Origin: Cochliopodium minus
Taxonomy: Eukaryota; Discosea; Himatismenida; Cochliopodiidae
NCBI GenBank assembly: GCA_024220525.1
Contig: JAMYWO010000038.1
Span: forward strand, 35,051-99,050
DNA length: 64,000 nucleotides
Direction of reading: 5' to 3'
A program made the position numbers and the translations under genes. The notes under the pieces were generated by a model. It was given only the letters and a program-made list of their open reading frames with translations. It was not told where the DNA came from and searched no databases. Within the stretch, counting starts at the first letter, position 1, and every line of letters begins with the position of its first letter. Shown in pieces: positions 3,959 to 34,841 of the stretch.

Positions 3959-6335
3959 TCACTTCTTCTCAACCATGTTCATTTTGGTTTGGAAAAGAAA
4001 AAACAAGTTGTGAAAAGAAGTAATCGAAAAAAAAGTAGTTTACNAGAAATGGATTGCTTTCCTTGATCATCTGTGTTGGTCAAAACTATTTTCAGGTACT
4101 CGTAACAATATCTAAAAAAAATTAAAAAAAATTAAAAAAAATTAAAAAAAATTAAAAAAATAAAAAAAAATAAAAAAAAATAAAAAATTAAAAAAAATAA
4201 AAAAAAATAAAAAATTAAAAAAATTAAAAAAATTTATGCCCATAGCTCCTTTTTCTGAGAACCTCGAGTTGATGTTTTCGTTGAGCTGTTGCTCCAAAAG
4301 ATCTATGGATTCGTCCATTTTATTGGACTCTGTGGACTTTATAGAAGTGACAGGTTTTTCACTTTTGGATAAAAAAATAAAAACAATAAGAATAAAATAA
4401 AAAGGATAAAAAATTCAAAAAAAAACAAATGGACAAATGCGGAGAAATTTAAAATAAATTTCTGAATGAAAATTTAATTATTTTTAAATTAAATTATTTT
4501 AGAATTATTTGGTGAATGAAAAGATTTCATCATCAATTATAAAAATAATAAAATAAAAAAAGAAAAAAATACAATGAAAATTAGAAAAATAAAATCAACG
4601 AAAATTTTTAAAATAAATAAAATTGAATAAAAAAAAATAAATTTAAAATGAAAAAAAAAGTTGGGGATACTTAAGAGTTCTTTTGACACTTTTGTGAGGA
4701 CTGTTATCATCAAAACTGAAATCCAAGTTGGAAAAATTGTCCAAAATCTCGTTGGCGTAAGTAGTGAAGCGCTTGTCCTTGGGATCATGGGAGACATTCG
4801 AAGGTTGGACATTTATTTTGTTCTTTTCATTTTGATTTTGATTGTCATTTTCATCTTCCAAGTTGCTCGAATCGATGTGAATTTCGTTTTCGTTGTTTTC
4901 TTCTTCGTTTTTGGTGGAGGAAGGGGTTTTGGCCCAGTTGGTGGGTTGGTTGGAGATGATTTCTTCCAGCACTTCGTCTGATTCGTCTTTTATCTCTTCC
5001 AGCACCTCTTCTTCTTCTATCTGTTTATTTTTTTTTTGTTTTTTGTCAAATTTTAGAAATGAAAAAACTTCTTAAAATCTCAATAATTGAATTTTAAAAA
5101 ATAAAATAGAATATTATATCAGATTTAACAAACAATTTTTTAACCAAAGAAAATAGAAAAAATTCTTTTAAAAAAAAATCAAAAAATAAATCAAATGATG
5201 CTTTTATTTTTTTTAACATCAAAAAAAAAACTTACCTTTTTTTGCATTATGTTGATTCTCTTTTGGATTTCTACTTCATTCATGTTTGGATTCTCGATGT
5301 TGTTGATTTTGAGATGATATTTGAGACCCTCGAGCCAATACTCCATGTCTTTCTCATTCTCCGCCATCAACTGCCAGATTCTCCCGTTATTGGTGTACAA
5401 ATTGAATGTGAAGAGCTCTTTGTTGGTCACTTCCACTGCAATCAAATCGGTCATCTCTATGAATCCCAAATCAGTTTTATCTTCTTTGCTCACAAAGTAA
5501 TACAATTTGTTGAATAATTGATTGAACCTATTTTGAAAAATGAATCAAAGAAAAAATTAAAGAGAAAAAAATTTGTCAGTAAAAAAGATCGATGAAGGAT
5601 CATTTTTAATCAACATATACTTTAGATATAAACTTGATATAATAAATTCTATCTTATATTTTGAAAGATTAATTGATCAATGAATGTTTTTTCAATAATA
5701 ATTAACTTATTTGTCAATATATGTTCTTTTTTTTTCTTACCATCTCATCTTCCATCCTTGCACAAAGGAGGGTCCTTTATCTCCCTTCTTTTTCAGATAT
5801 CCTTTCAAAGGATTTCTTTTTTTATTATCAGAAATGGTAGTAGTTCTTCTTGTGGCAGAATTGGATGGAGTCTCACCTGTTTTCTTTTTGTATTCGAAAT
5901 ATTCCATCCATTTTCGAATTCCATATTCCCACAAATTGATTTCCTTTTCGAGCCCATTCATTGTCCTCAAAAAATATACTCTTCCAGGAACATGCATAGC
6001 AAATATCTTTTCCTCTTTATCTTTCTGTATTTCAAATTTGATTATTTTGGAGATATCAATGGATCTAACATCGAATTCAAGAAATATTATAAAAGGAAAA
6101 TAAAAATTTTATTATTAAAATTTTGATACCCTAAATCTTCATCAACTTCCTTTTCTTTCTTATATTTCAAGAGATGTGTCTGATCTTTATCTTGTTCAAA
6201 CCATCTGACTTTCCAAGATTTGACCAAACCTACTTCTCCCTTTTTCTTCAATTTTCCACTCAATAATTTGGGTTCCTTTGATAAAATAAAAAATTTGAAT
6301 TTTTGGGGGAGAAGTTATTATTCTTTTACCTCCAT
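3959..6335 (-). CDS. Tandem PH-domain protein
   Basis: Exons read 6335-6330, 6275-6130, 6064-5741, 5527-5236, 5020-4671 and 4361 to about 4240. The first exon is only ATG GAG. Two pleckstrin-homology folds are visible. The first begins LSGKLKKKGEVGLVKSWKVRW and ends in a helix with RKWMEYFEYKK. The second begins LKGYLKKKGDKGPSFVQGW and ends MEYWLEGLKYHLK. The basic KxKKKG starts are typical of phosphoinositide-binding PH domains. The tail is acidic and Asp/Glu/Asn-rich. The 3' end is uncertain: after MDESIDLLEQQLNEN the frame enters the A-rich tract with no GT donor, and a GC donor at GGGCATAA is possible. A later exon (about 4112-4045, containing YEYLKIVLTNTDDQGK) and a stop at 3959-3961 are inferred. 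The likely role is membrane-associated signalling or trafficking. Confidence 0.72.
4115..4233. repeat. Low-complexity A-rich tract (AAAAAAATT units)
   Basis: Short units of seven or eight A followed by TT or T are repeated with little interruption. On the minus strand this is T-rich, as the introns here are, and it lies between two exons of the PH-domain gene, so it is probably intronic. A single undetermined base (n) occurs nearby at 4044. Confidence 0.8.
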
Positions 6336-29892: not shown

Positions 29893-31568
29893 TGGTCTTT
29901 TCTTGCTTACAAATAAAGGAGAGGTATATTAAAAGAAAATCAAAATTGGTTAAAAAAACTGAACAAATTCTTTGATATATAGAGTTTAATCTCACGTATC
30001 TTTCGTGATGACATTAGGTAATTAAATTTTCAAAAATTTTGAAAAAGTTTCTGAATGAAAAATTTCAAAAAGTTTGGATTGTGCACATACTTTCAGATTG
30101 AGTGTGATATCTTCCAAGGACATCAGATCACCCATCAACAGGACAAGAGACGCAACATTTTTGCATATCTATGTGGGAGAGCTCTATGTGATGGCAGCAA
30201 CCAAAGGAAATCCAAATTGCAGCGTGGTATTCGAATTATTGCATTCAATAGTGGTCACTTTTCAAGATTTTTTTGGAGAATTTTCAGAAGAAGCAATAAG
30301 AAAGAATTCGGCTGTTATATATGAATTATTGGATGGTATGTTCCTAAATATTATTAATTTACTTTCTTTCATATCACAAATAAAACTCATTTTTTTTGAT
30401 CAAAATATTACAGAAATGTTGGATTTTGGATATCCACAAATCACCCAAACAGAATCTCTGAAATTGTTTATCAAAGGTCAAGGAGAAAAAAGCGAAACAG
30501 CCGTAAATAATAAGTTTTCTTCATATACTTTTCAAAAAAAAGATATAAAATGAATTTTTTGTTGATATTAAATTTAGCACAAACAAATAACCAAAGAATT
30601 GACTGGTAAATCAAAATATAGACAAGATAATATCATTTATAAAAAGAATGAAATCTTTATCGATGTGATCGAAAATATAAATGCTCTCATCTCCAAGGAG
30701 GGAAAACCTCTGAGCCAAGATGTCAGCGGACAAATCAAGTTGAAGTGTATTTTAAGTGGTATGCCCGAATGTCGTTTTGGATTCAATGATAAATTGCAAA
30801 TTCAAAGTGATGAGAAAATGTAAGAAATAATTTGACAAAATTTTAATTTAATTATATTAAATTATATTCAAAGGTTGAATCGTGAGATCAACAAGAAAGG
30901 TATTGCTATAGATGATGTCACTTGCCATCCTTGTGTAAAATTAAATGAATTCGATAAAAATAGAGAAATCCAATTCACCCCTCCTGATGGAGTCTTTGAA
31001 TTGCTCAACTACAGAACCACCGCCAATCTCCAGCTCCCTTTCAACATCACTCCCATTGTAAATGAATATGGTAACACCAGAGTCGATTATAAGATCAGAA
31101 TTGAATCTACCTACAGTCAAAGATTGACCGGAACAGATGGTAAAAAGAAATTTCCTTTTTAGAGAATCAAATTTCCTTTTTTTTAATTTTTTTATTCTCC
31201 TTCACATAACAAATTCTCTTATAGTAAAAATCACCATCCCCACACCTCCCAACACTGCTCTCACCAAAATCAAAACACAGGCGGGAAAGGCAAAGTATGA
31301 GCCTTCTCTCAATGCTATCGTTTGGCTCATCAAAAAGTTTCCTGGTAATCAACACTACGATTTCACTGCGCATGTTGATTTGATTTCCACCACTGTAAAA
31401 AAGGTATGGTCCCGCCCTCCTATCTCCTTGAGCTTTGAGGTTCCTACTTGTGCTTCTGGTTTAGTTGTTAGGTATCTTCGTGTTGTCGAGCATAAATTGA
31501 GATATACCCCCCTTAAATGGGTTCGTTATATTGCTAGGGCGGGCAATTATCAATTCCGTATCTCTTAA
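29893..31568 (+). CDS. AP2M1: AP-2 complex subunit mu (5' end not resolved)
   Basis: Exons 29893-29923, 29983-30017, 30073-30335, 30414-30502, 30578-30819, 30874-31139 and 31225-31568 join in phase to about 423 codons. The longin part reads GLFLLTNKGE, SLISRIFRDDI, IRSPINRTRD and VIYELLD-EMLDFGYPQ. The mu homology domain has LSGMPECRFGFNDKL, IQFTPPDGVFELLNYRT and the C-terminal KWVRYIARAGNYQFR. The LSGMPEC and FDxxRxIxF patterns fit mu2, which reads tyrosine cargo signals in clathrin endocytosis; mu1 or mu4 are less likely. The start was not found: the first exon should supply ATG with two bases in the last codon, and the nearest ATG (29828) runs into a stop after two codons. Confidence 0.88.
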
Positions 31569-32050: not shown

Positions 32051-34841
32051 ATGAACAAAGGTACTGAAAATTTTTATTTTCCAAAGAGTATATATCATTA
32101 TTTCTCTCATATATTTTAAATAGCAAGAAAATTGGTCAGCAAACAAAAAAGAAGATTCACTGAAGATGGATTTGACTTGGATTTGAGTTGTAAGTTTAAT
32201 ATAAAACTTAAAATTTTATAACAGTATTTTTTTTTTTGAAAATATATTTTTATCAATATAGATATAGGAGAAAGTAGATTAATAGCAATGGGATTTCCTT
32301 CAGAGAGCATAGAATCTGCTTATAGAAATCCATATAAAGAAGTTAAAAGGTATTTTTTTTCCTATCAATCATAATTAAAACGATGAAATGACTAAAAATG
32401 TCAAGATTTTTGGAAACAAAACACAATGGCCATTACATGGTCTACAATTTGTAAGATTTTTAAATTTTAAATAAAGATTCGGGCACATTTATTCTCTAAA
32501 ATAAATAAAGATGTTCAGAAAAAGATAGACAATATAGTCCAGCAAAGTTTAATGATATGGTCGCATGTTACCCATTCGAGGATCGTAAATTAAAATTATA
32601 ATCTTAATTCCACTTTTAAATGAGTAAAATAAATTAATCTTCAATTTTTTTTTATTTGGCAGATAATCCTCCTCCATTTGGAATGATTGAAGAATTTTGC
32701 GAAAATGTGGTATGCACAAAAAATTATTTTCCTTTGTTTTTTAATGCAGGATGATTAATATCAAAAAAAAAAAATATTTTTTCTACATAGTATGAATTTC
32801 TTTCCAAAGATAAAACAAATGTTGCAGCAATTCATTGCAAGGCAAAAATTGATTTTTATACTATTATAAATAATGCTCATTCAAATTAAAAATTTATATA
32901 GGCAGGAAAAGGAAGAACAGGAACAATGATCATCTGCCATCTTTTATACATAAAATTTTATACACATCCTCAAGAAGCACAAGAATTTTATGCAGCCATG
33001 AGAACCTTCAATCAAAAAGGGCTCACCATTCCATCTCAGATTAGATATGTAAATTATTTCGGGCAGACTGTTGGAAAAAAGGTTTGGAATCATATTTTTT
33101 GATCGAACAAAATAATATTATAATTATACAATATGATTATTCCTCACAATACTTTTACAAATTTTATCTTTACTCTGATTCCATTTAGGTCAAACCAGTT
33201 CTTGATTATCCAGCTCCAACAATGTTCCTCAAAAAAATTTCAATTTCCCCACTTCCCAAAGGAGTAAATTTGAAAGGTATATCCCATAAGTTTCTTTATT
33301 ATATTTTAAATATATCATTCTATGAAACATCTCATTTTTTTATTTAATTCTATTTTAGCTACCAAGTTTAAATTAGATTGCAATAGAAAGACCATATACC
33401 AATTCAAGGGCGAAGTAGAAGTCGTTAAGAAAAAAAAAAAAATATTAAAAAATGAGGAAGGAGTCAAAGAAAGAGCAATATTTAAACTGGAAAAAATACC
33501 AATATGTGGTGATATCAAAATGGTTTTCACTAATAATAATGTAAATCTCATTCCTCTAACCTTATATATAAAAATAATACCATAAAATTAACTGACAATA
33601 TAATTATTTTATAGAATAAATTTTTTCATTTTTGGTTCAACACGGCATTCATCAGAAATTTTCATTTGAGATTGAAAAAGCACGAAGTAGATGGACCAAA
33701 CAAAGATAAGAAGGAGAAAACATACACCAAAGATTTCCAAATAGATTTATTCTTTGATGGCCAAGATCCTTCCCCTAATCCCCTCAATGAAGAAGGAATC
33801 GAGATAGACAAATCAGAGATGAATTTGTGCAAAATAAAAAATTTTCAACAACTCAAAGACGGAAGATATGTGCTTAATCCTCCTGATATTGAACATTGCC
33901 AAGATAATGAGGATTTCATGGATTGCGTGAATGTATCTAGCAAGGCATTGAAATCAATCTTCACACTTATCAACGACGAATCCTCAGAGGGATTCATCAA
34001 TTCGGAGATCTCCTCCAAGATTCTCAACAAGAGAGAATACAAAGATTTTTGCATTGTTTTGAAAGATTACCAATTGATCACCTTTGATTATATATCCCAA
34101 GATTCCTTGGTGGTCTTCTGGCTCAATACATATCACGTGATGTTGTTGCATGCACTTCTTGAATATAATCCAAATAATTTCAAAGAGCGCAATTTCATGA
34201 TGAAAACTGCCACTTACTATATCAATGGCCAATTTTATACCCTCAATGAGATCCATCACCTCATTTTGAGAAATGCCAATTCCGTTCCTCCCATCGATTT
34301 TCCCACCGCCAAGATGTTCTCCAACAAAGATGAGCGTCTCAACTGCGTTCTCGAACATGATCCCCGCCTCAATTTCTGTGCTTCTTTCCTCCAACCTTTT
34401 TCTCCTCCCATCCGTCTTTTTTCTGTCAAAGATTTTCCCCGCCATTTGCAAGAATGTACCACCTATTTTCTCGACAAGAATGTGGTCATTGATACTGATA
34501 AAAAAACTGTTTCCCTCACTGGATTCCTTCGCTGGTACTCTCAAGATTTCGGAAAGGATGACAAATCCATCATCCAGTTTTTAAAGAATAACATGAGCAC
34601 CAAAGATTCTGAGAAGTTAACTCCCGATTTCTCGATCAAATTAGTCGAAGAAAAACAATTTGATTGGAATAAATTTCAAATTAATGAATTCCCTTCCGAT
34701 TATGTTCTTACCAAGCACATCGTAATTGAAACCAAAAAAAAAGTTGATCACACCCCTCCTCCTATCAACAATAATCATCTCACCAACACTAGCAATGAAG
34801 AAACCTCTTCCTCTTCAAGCACACCAGAAGAAGACAATTAA
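32051..34841 (+). CDS. PTEN: PTEN phosphatase fused to a C-terminal DUF547 domain
   Basis: Eleven exons (32051-32060, 32124-32189, 32262-32349, 32406-32450, 32511-32584, 32663-32709, 32791-32841, 32902-33081, 33189-33276, 33359-33540, 33615-34841) sum to 685 codons. Residues 4-25 match the PTEN PIP2-binding start (KQKRRFTEDGFDLDLSYIGE). The phosphatase has YPFEDHNPPP and the P-loop HCKAGKGRTG with catalytic Cys126 and Arg132, identical to human PTEN in this loop. The C2 domain has PICGDIKMVF and KFFHFWFNTAFI. Instead of a short tail there is a further domain of about 230 residues with DUF547 features: SLVVFWLNTYHVMLLHALLE, NGQFYTLNEIHHLILR, DPRLNF...PPIRLFSV and SLTGFLRWYSQDFG. The intron after codon 127 must use a GC donor. 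PTEN removes the 3-phosphate of PIP3. Confidence 0.93.

Follow-up and report, generated by a model that had tools for sequence, protein, structure and literature searches.

A PTEN-DUF547 fusion in Cochliopodium minus with a DUF547 domain that looks non-catalytic

Introduction

Among the brakes on PIP3 signalling, PTEN is a central one, and in Cochliopodium minus one gene joins it to a DUF547 domain. The gene lies in a 64,000-nucleotide stretch of contig JAMYWO010000038.1, the whole of which is referred to here as the window. This architecture is already known from Entamoeba histolytica, where EhPTEN1 (EHI_197010), published in 2022, consists of a phosphatase, a C2 domain, and DUF547; the last is printed as "DUF457" in the text and as "DUF547" in the Fig 1 legend (PMC9122207). 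According to the available part of that report, full-length EhPTEN1 including DUF547 is active on PIP3 in vitro with a Km of 92.5 uM, the protein is mainly cytosolic, with enrichment at pseudopods and at the cups of phagocytosis and trogocytosis, and silencing it increases both of these processes and decreases migration and growth (PMC9122207). With activity, localisation, and silencing thus published, the expectation of the first-pass annotation that the link to PIP3 signalling could give the first handle on DUF547 does not hold. We found no DUF547 truncation of EhPTEN1 in the available part of PMC9122207, and our literature search returned no second paper combining PTEN with DUF547 or with the misprint DUF457. 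New here are the occurrence of PTEN-DUF547 in another genome, an indication that E. histolytica is no isolated case, a structure model of DUF547, and the replacement of conserved core residues in the PTEN-linked copy.

Results

The PTEN-DUF547 gene is read as 11 exons on the + strand (32051-34841), which form one continuous frame and encode a 685-aa product (Table 1). Splice sites were picked by eye, guided by PTEN motifs. The 10 introns are 56-107 nt long and 77-89% A+T, and retention of any one of the 10 brings in an in-frame stop. Nine introns have GT-AG borders, and the remaining one (32842-32901) has GC-AG borders and splits the catalytic motif between HCK and AGKGRTG. The first-pass annotation had claimed that C2 ends, and DUF547 lies entirely, within a single 1227-bp last exon, and the gene model bears this out, with a last exon at 33615-34841 that is a 408-codon open frame. 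Since the last stretch of C2 and the complete DUF547 share this open exon, the fusion is independent of any guessed splice. Upstream of the gene, at 30578-31568 of the window, three open frames match PF00928 (adaptor-complex medium subunit) at E 7.7e-22, 1e-22, and 2.5e-26, and this neighbour looks like an AP mu subunit.

Table 1. Features of the PTEN-DUF547 gene, in window positions
Feature	Position	Strand	Basis
PTEN-DUF547 gene, exons 1-6	32051-32060, 32124-32189, 32262-32349, 32406-32450, 32511-32584, 32663-32709	+	
PTEN-DUF547 gene, exons 7-11	32791-32841, 32902-33081, 33189-33276, 33359-33540, 33615-34841	+	
Start motifs (KQKRRF, DGFDLDL) and PTEN phosphatase domain, residues about 4-187	32124-33081	+	Pfam, phmmer, motif positions
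P-loop HCKAGKGRTG, residues 125-134	32833-32922	+	Translation
PTEN C2 domain, residues 195-324, across the last three exons	33210-33755	+	Pfam, E 8e-21
DUF547 region as modelled, residues 352-633	33837-34682	+	Pfam E 1.4e-20; pLDDT 82.2, pTM 0.83
DUF547 Pfam core, residues 438-563	34095-34472	+	Pfam
Stretch with the five substituted core positions	34134-34403	+	Alignment with prokaryotic relatives
C-terminal tail, residues 634-685, Pro/Asn/Ser/Thr/Glu-rich end	34683-34838	+	Translation

The first part of the product had been taken for a full PTEN, with a PIP2-binding start, a phosphatase carrying HCKAGKGRTG, and a C2 domain, and Pfam, phmmer, and the motif positions all agree with this. When residues 1-327 were searched against the PDB with phmmer, human PTEN matched residues 6-325 at E 1.9e-68, so that phosphatase and C2 are both alignable with the human protein (PDB 1d5r, 7juk) over this range. 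A Pfam search of the 685-aa product placed PTEN_C2 (PF10409) after the phosphatase, for which several models matched within residues 58-162 (E 3.8e-9 to 2.6e-5). Among the three domains that the first-pass annotation had expected from Pfam, PTEN_C2 and DUF547 were matched, but DSPc stayed below its cut-off (28.6 vs 33.5 bits), whereas the phosphatase models Tc-R-P, PTP-SAK, and Y_phosphatase exceeded theirs.

The functional motifs named in the work on EhPTEN1 are the P-loop, the PIP2-binding motif, and DGFxLDL, along with two TI-loop residues, Thr and Ile, and we took our definitions of the PIP2-binding start and of DGFxLDL from the same source (PMC9122207, available part). In the C. minus product, KQKRRF starts at residue 10, DGFDLDL at 18, FEDHNPP at 92, HCKAGKGRTG at 125, and TIPSQ at 169, and the PIP2-binding start K/R-x4-K/R-x-K/R-K/R-R is formed by R5, K10, K12, R13, and R14. 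Since all PTEN motifs are present, the PTEN half is likely an active PIP3 3-phosphatase. Likened by its published architecture, EhPTEN1 shares the PIP2-binding start, an HC(K/R)AGKGR phosphatase, C2, and then DUF547, with the difference that its carboxyl extension is about 400 residues long and the domain is given at 550-680, whereas in the C. minus protein it lies at 438-563 of 685; human PTEN, in contrast, has PEST sequences and a PDZ-binding end in place of DUF547 (PMC9122207, available part).

The DUF547 domain itself is confirmed by a Pfam profile match (PF04784) of 74.0 bits vs a cut-off of 27, and the PTEN-fused copy also gave the best DUF547 score of our whole-genome search (77.4 bits). 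We predicted the structure of residues 352-633 from an alignment in which 69 of 80 prokaryotic relatives served as rows, each at 15-24% identity to the PTEN-fused DUF547, and obtained the pLDDT and pTM values listed in Table 1. A profile search of the PDB with DUF547 found no relative and no solved family structure for comparison; with the model as query, a fold search of the PDB gave no match below E 1.5, and one of viral models gave no convincing relative.

We then compared the PTEN-fused domain with prokaryotic DUF547 proteins, for which we used the best 80 of 577 relatives confirmed in genome contigs, a choice that makes the set lean to canonical members. Among these best 80, E, H, C, and C are invariant (80/80), N is found in 78/78 of those with the column, D in 80/80, and R in 79/80. 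The patterns used for finding relatives included N and H, not E, C, C, or D, and relatives without the search pattern nevertheless retain N or H. We infer that the invariant N, E, H, C, and C would form an active site. In contrast to the best 80 prokaryotic relatives, the PTEN-fused copy keeps none of these five residues: N is replaced by H451, E by H491, H by N530, and the two cysteines by F535 and S540. The framework is shared to a larger extent, with 17 of the 30 positions conserved at at least 80% in the 69-row alignment being retained, including N448 and W584 as well as W446, Y450, R528, P541, D588, and W628, which are common to the prokaryotic proteins and the PTEN-fused copy. Since N, E, H, C, and C have given way to H, H, N, F, and S, the PTEN-linked DUF547 looks non-catalytic. 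The earlier domain reading was right in its testable parts. It had not noticed the replacement of conserved core residues.

To guard against a bias towards canonical members, we read by eye two second, lower-scoring DUF547 copies, taken from two of the four prokaryotic genomes searched for this, and both lack the two cysteines. Core loss is thus not peculiar to signalling fusions, and, judged from these sequences, the canonical N/E/H/C/C core does not define all DUF547 proteins.

To place the fusion among its relatives in the same genome, we searched the assembly (44.65 Mb, 598 contigs) and found 17 exon-level DUF547 matches, which group into about 13 loci, each with a match over cut-off, together with nine PTEN_C2 matches, eight of them above cut-off. 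The contig of the PTEN-DUF547 gene (C38) is the only one with matches to both, and a local DUF547 profile found no match at E 0.01 within the 10-kb regions around the eight remaining PTEN_C2 sites. The cysteine positions were readable at 12 of the 13 loci, comprising the PTEN-fused copy and eight others by alignment and three by eye (C5, C11, and C297); the locus at C16:65900 was left out of the count because its later part enters masked sequence. Both cysteines are kept at one of the 12 readable loci (C16:21720), and 10 of the 11 readable loci other than the PTEN fusion are without both. L025:7215-8115 is the only readable DUF547 locus with the canonical HFALVCGAKSCPP motif, and no upstream exon with an FWxN motif was seen in the stretch read there.

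Where the exons neighbouring the other DUF547 loci were matched, they were RasGAP, weak DEP, or glutaredoxin exons, unlike the PTEN of the fusion. RasGAP matches lie in open frames upstream of DUF547 on contigs C2, C179, and C11, glutaredoxin matches lie upstream of it at C348, C90, and the second C16 locus, and weak DEP matches, both below the Pfam cut-off, lie upstream of it at C5 and C11. Judged by exon neighbourhood rather than by spliced gene models, these RasGAP, DEP, and glutaredoxin exons are likely fused to the nearby DUF547. The notion that DUF547 often follows DEP or similar signalling domains therefore fits loosely, by way of two sub-threshold DEP matches and the RasGAP exons.

Other PTEN copies of the genome showed features of their own. 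In a copy without DUF547 on the minus strand (L030; G000:C113:69000-78999), IHS replaces the expected IHC at about oriented 4800-4920, which makes this copy a candidate pseudophosphatase or decaying copy. Elsewhere, a LIM domain comes after a PTEN C2 domain without a change of frame, and the open frame that follows holds another LIM (L035:5249-5942). At L036:4677-5777, a PH-domain match (E 1.1e-9) lies about 750 bases beyond a PTEN_C2 match.

Discussion

We hypothesize that the DUF547 of this protein is non-catalytic and serves to position PTEN, as a docking or targeting module, and we regard this as an even call. In such a protein, the phosphatase and C2 would bind PIP2/PIP3 membranes and dephosphorylate PIP3 as human PTEN does, and DUF547, with its framework kept and N/E/H/C/C lost, would tether PTEN to particular sites of the membrane or to complexes with partners. 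These sites may be those of Ras-type GTPase action, which we propose because RasGAP exons adjoin other DUF547 loci of the genome. With the core replacement, a loosely defined "unknown domain" becomes the subject of a testable claim, namely that it is a binding module and not an enzyme.

In human PTEN, the phosphorylated tail folds back on C2 or the phosphatase and tunes membrane binding. A similar autoregulation, in which DUF547 and the Ser/Thr/Glu-rich tail would fold back on C2 or the phosphatase to tune membrane binding, is rather unlikely in the C. minus protein: DUF547 is positioned between C2 and an acidic Ser/Thr-rich tail, and its modelled region is confident on its own, but full-length EhPTEN1 is active in vitro with its DUF547 in place, so any block would be incomplete (PMC9122207, available part). 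This activity speaks against full autoinhibition and is compatible with a role in targeting.

DUF547 could instead still be an enzyme that works through other residues, such as H451 and H491, and acts beside PIP3 turnover. D588 and R528 are retained and two of the replaced positions now carry histidine, yet the histidine and the two cysteines that are invariant in the prokaryotic relatives are gone, and 10 of the 11 other readable loci are likewise without both cysteines, which makes continued catalysis quite unlikely. We consider it improbable that DUF547 is a passenger, retained from an old fusion while having no strong function itself. That the genome's eight other PTEN_C2 matches have no DUF547 match around them would suit such a history, but it is hard to square with the 408-codon open frame, with the strong profile match, which is the genome's top-scoring one for DUF547, and with the E. 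histolytica protein that shares this architecture (PMC9122207, available part). That two genes were joined through a wrong splice or assembly is highly improbable, for although the gene model rests on genomic sequence, the join falls within one uninterrupted exon and the architecture is published in E. histolytica (PMC9122207, available part).

Extending the docking module proposed for PTEN to the wider family, we put forward more tentatively that eukaryotic signalling DUF547 is a pseudoenzyme adaptor, in which an ancestral two-cysteine prokaryotic enzyme would have lost its core and become a docking module shared by PTEN, RasGAP, DEP, and glutaredoxin proteins. If true, such an adaptor would bring PIP3 removal and Ras inactivation to the same sites. 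The ancestral chemistry is best sought in canonical prokaryotic DUF547 proteins, with their two invariant cysteines and histidine.

We also compared seven plasmid regions, six of them annotated. The DUF547 gene lies directly 3' of an FAD-dependent oxidoreductase gene in five of the seven (L038, L040, L042, L043, and L044), and three of these five adjoining oxidoreductases are annotated as fused to a TVP38/TMEM64 part. Arsenosugar glycosyltransferase genes occur near DUF547 in two of the seven regions (L039 and L042). These plasmid neighbours hint at a redox or arsenic-linked role for canonical DUF547.
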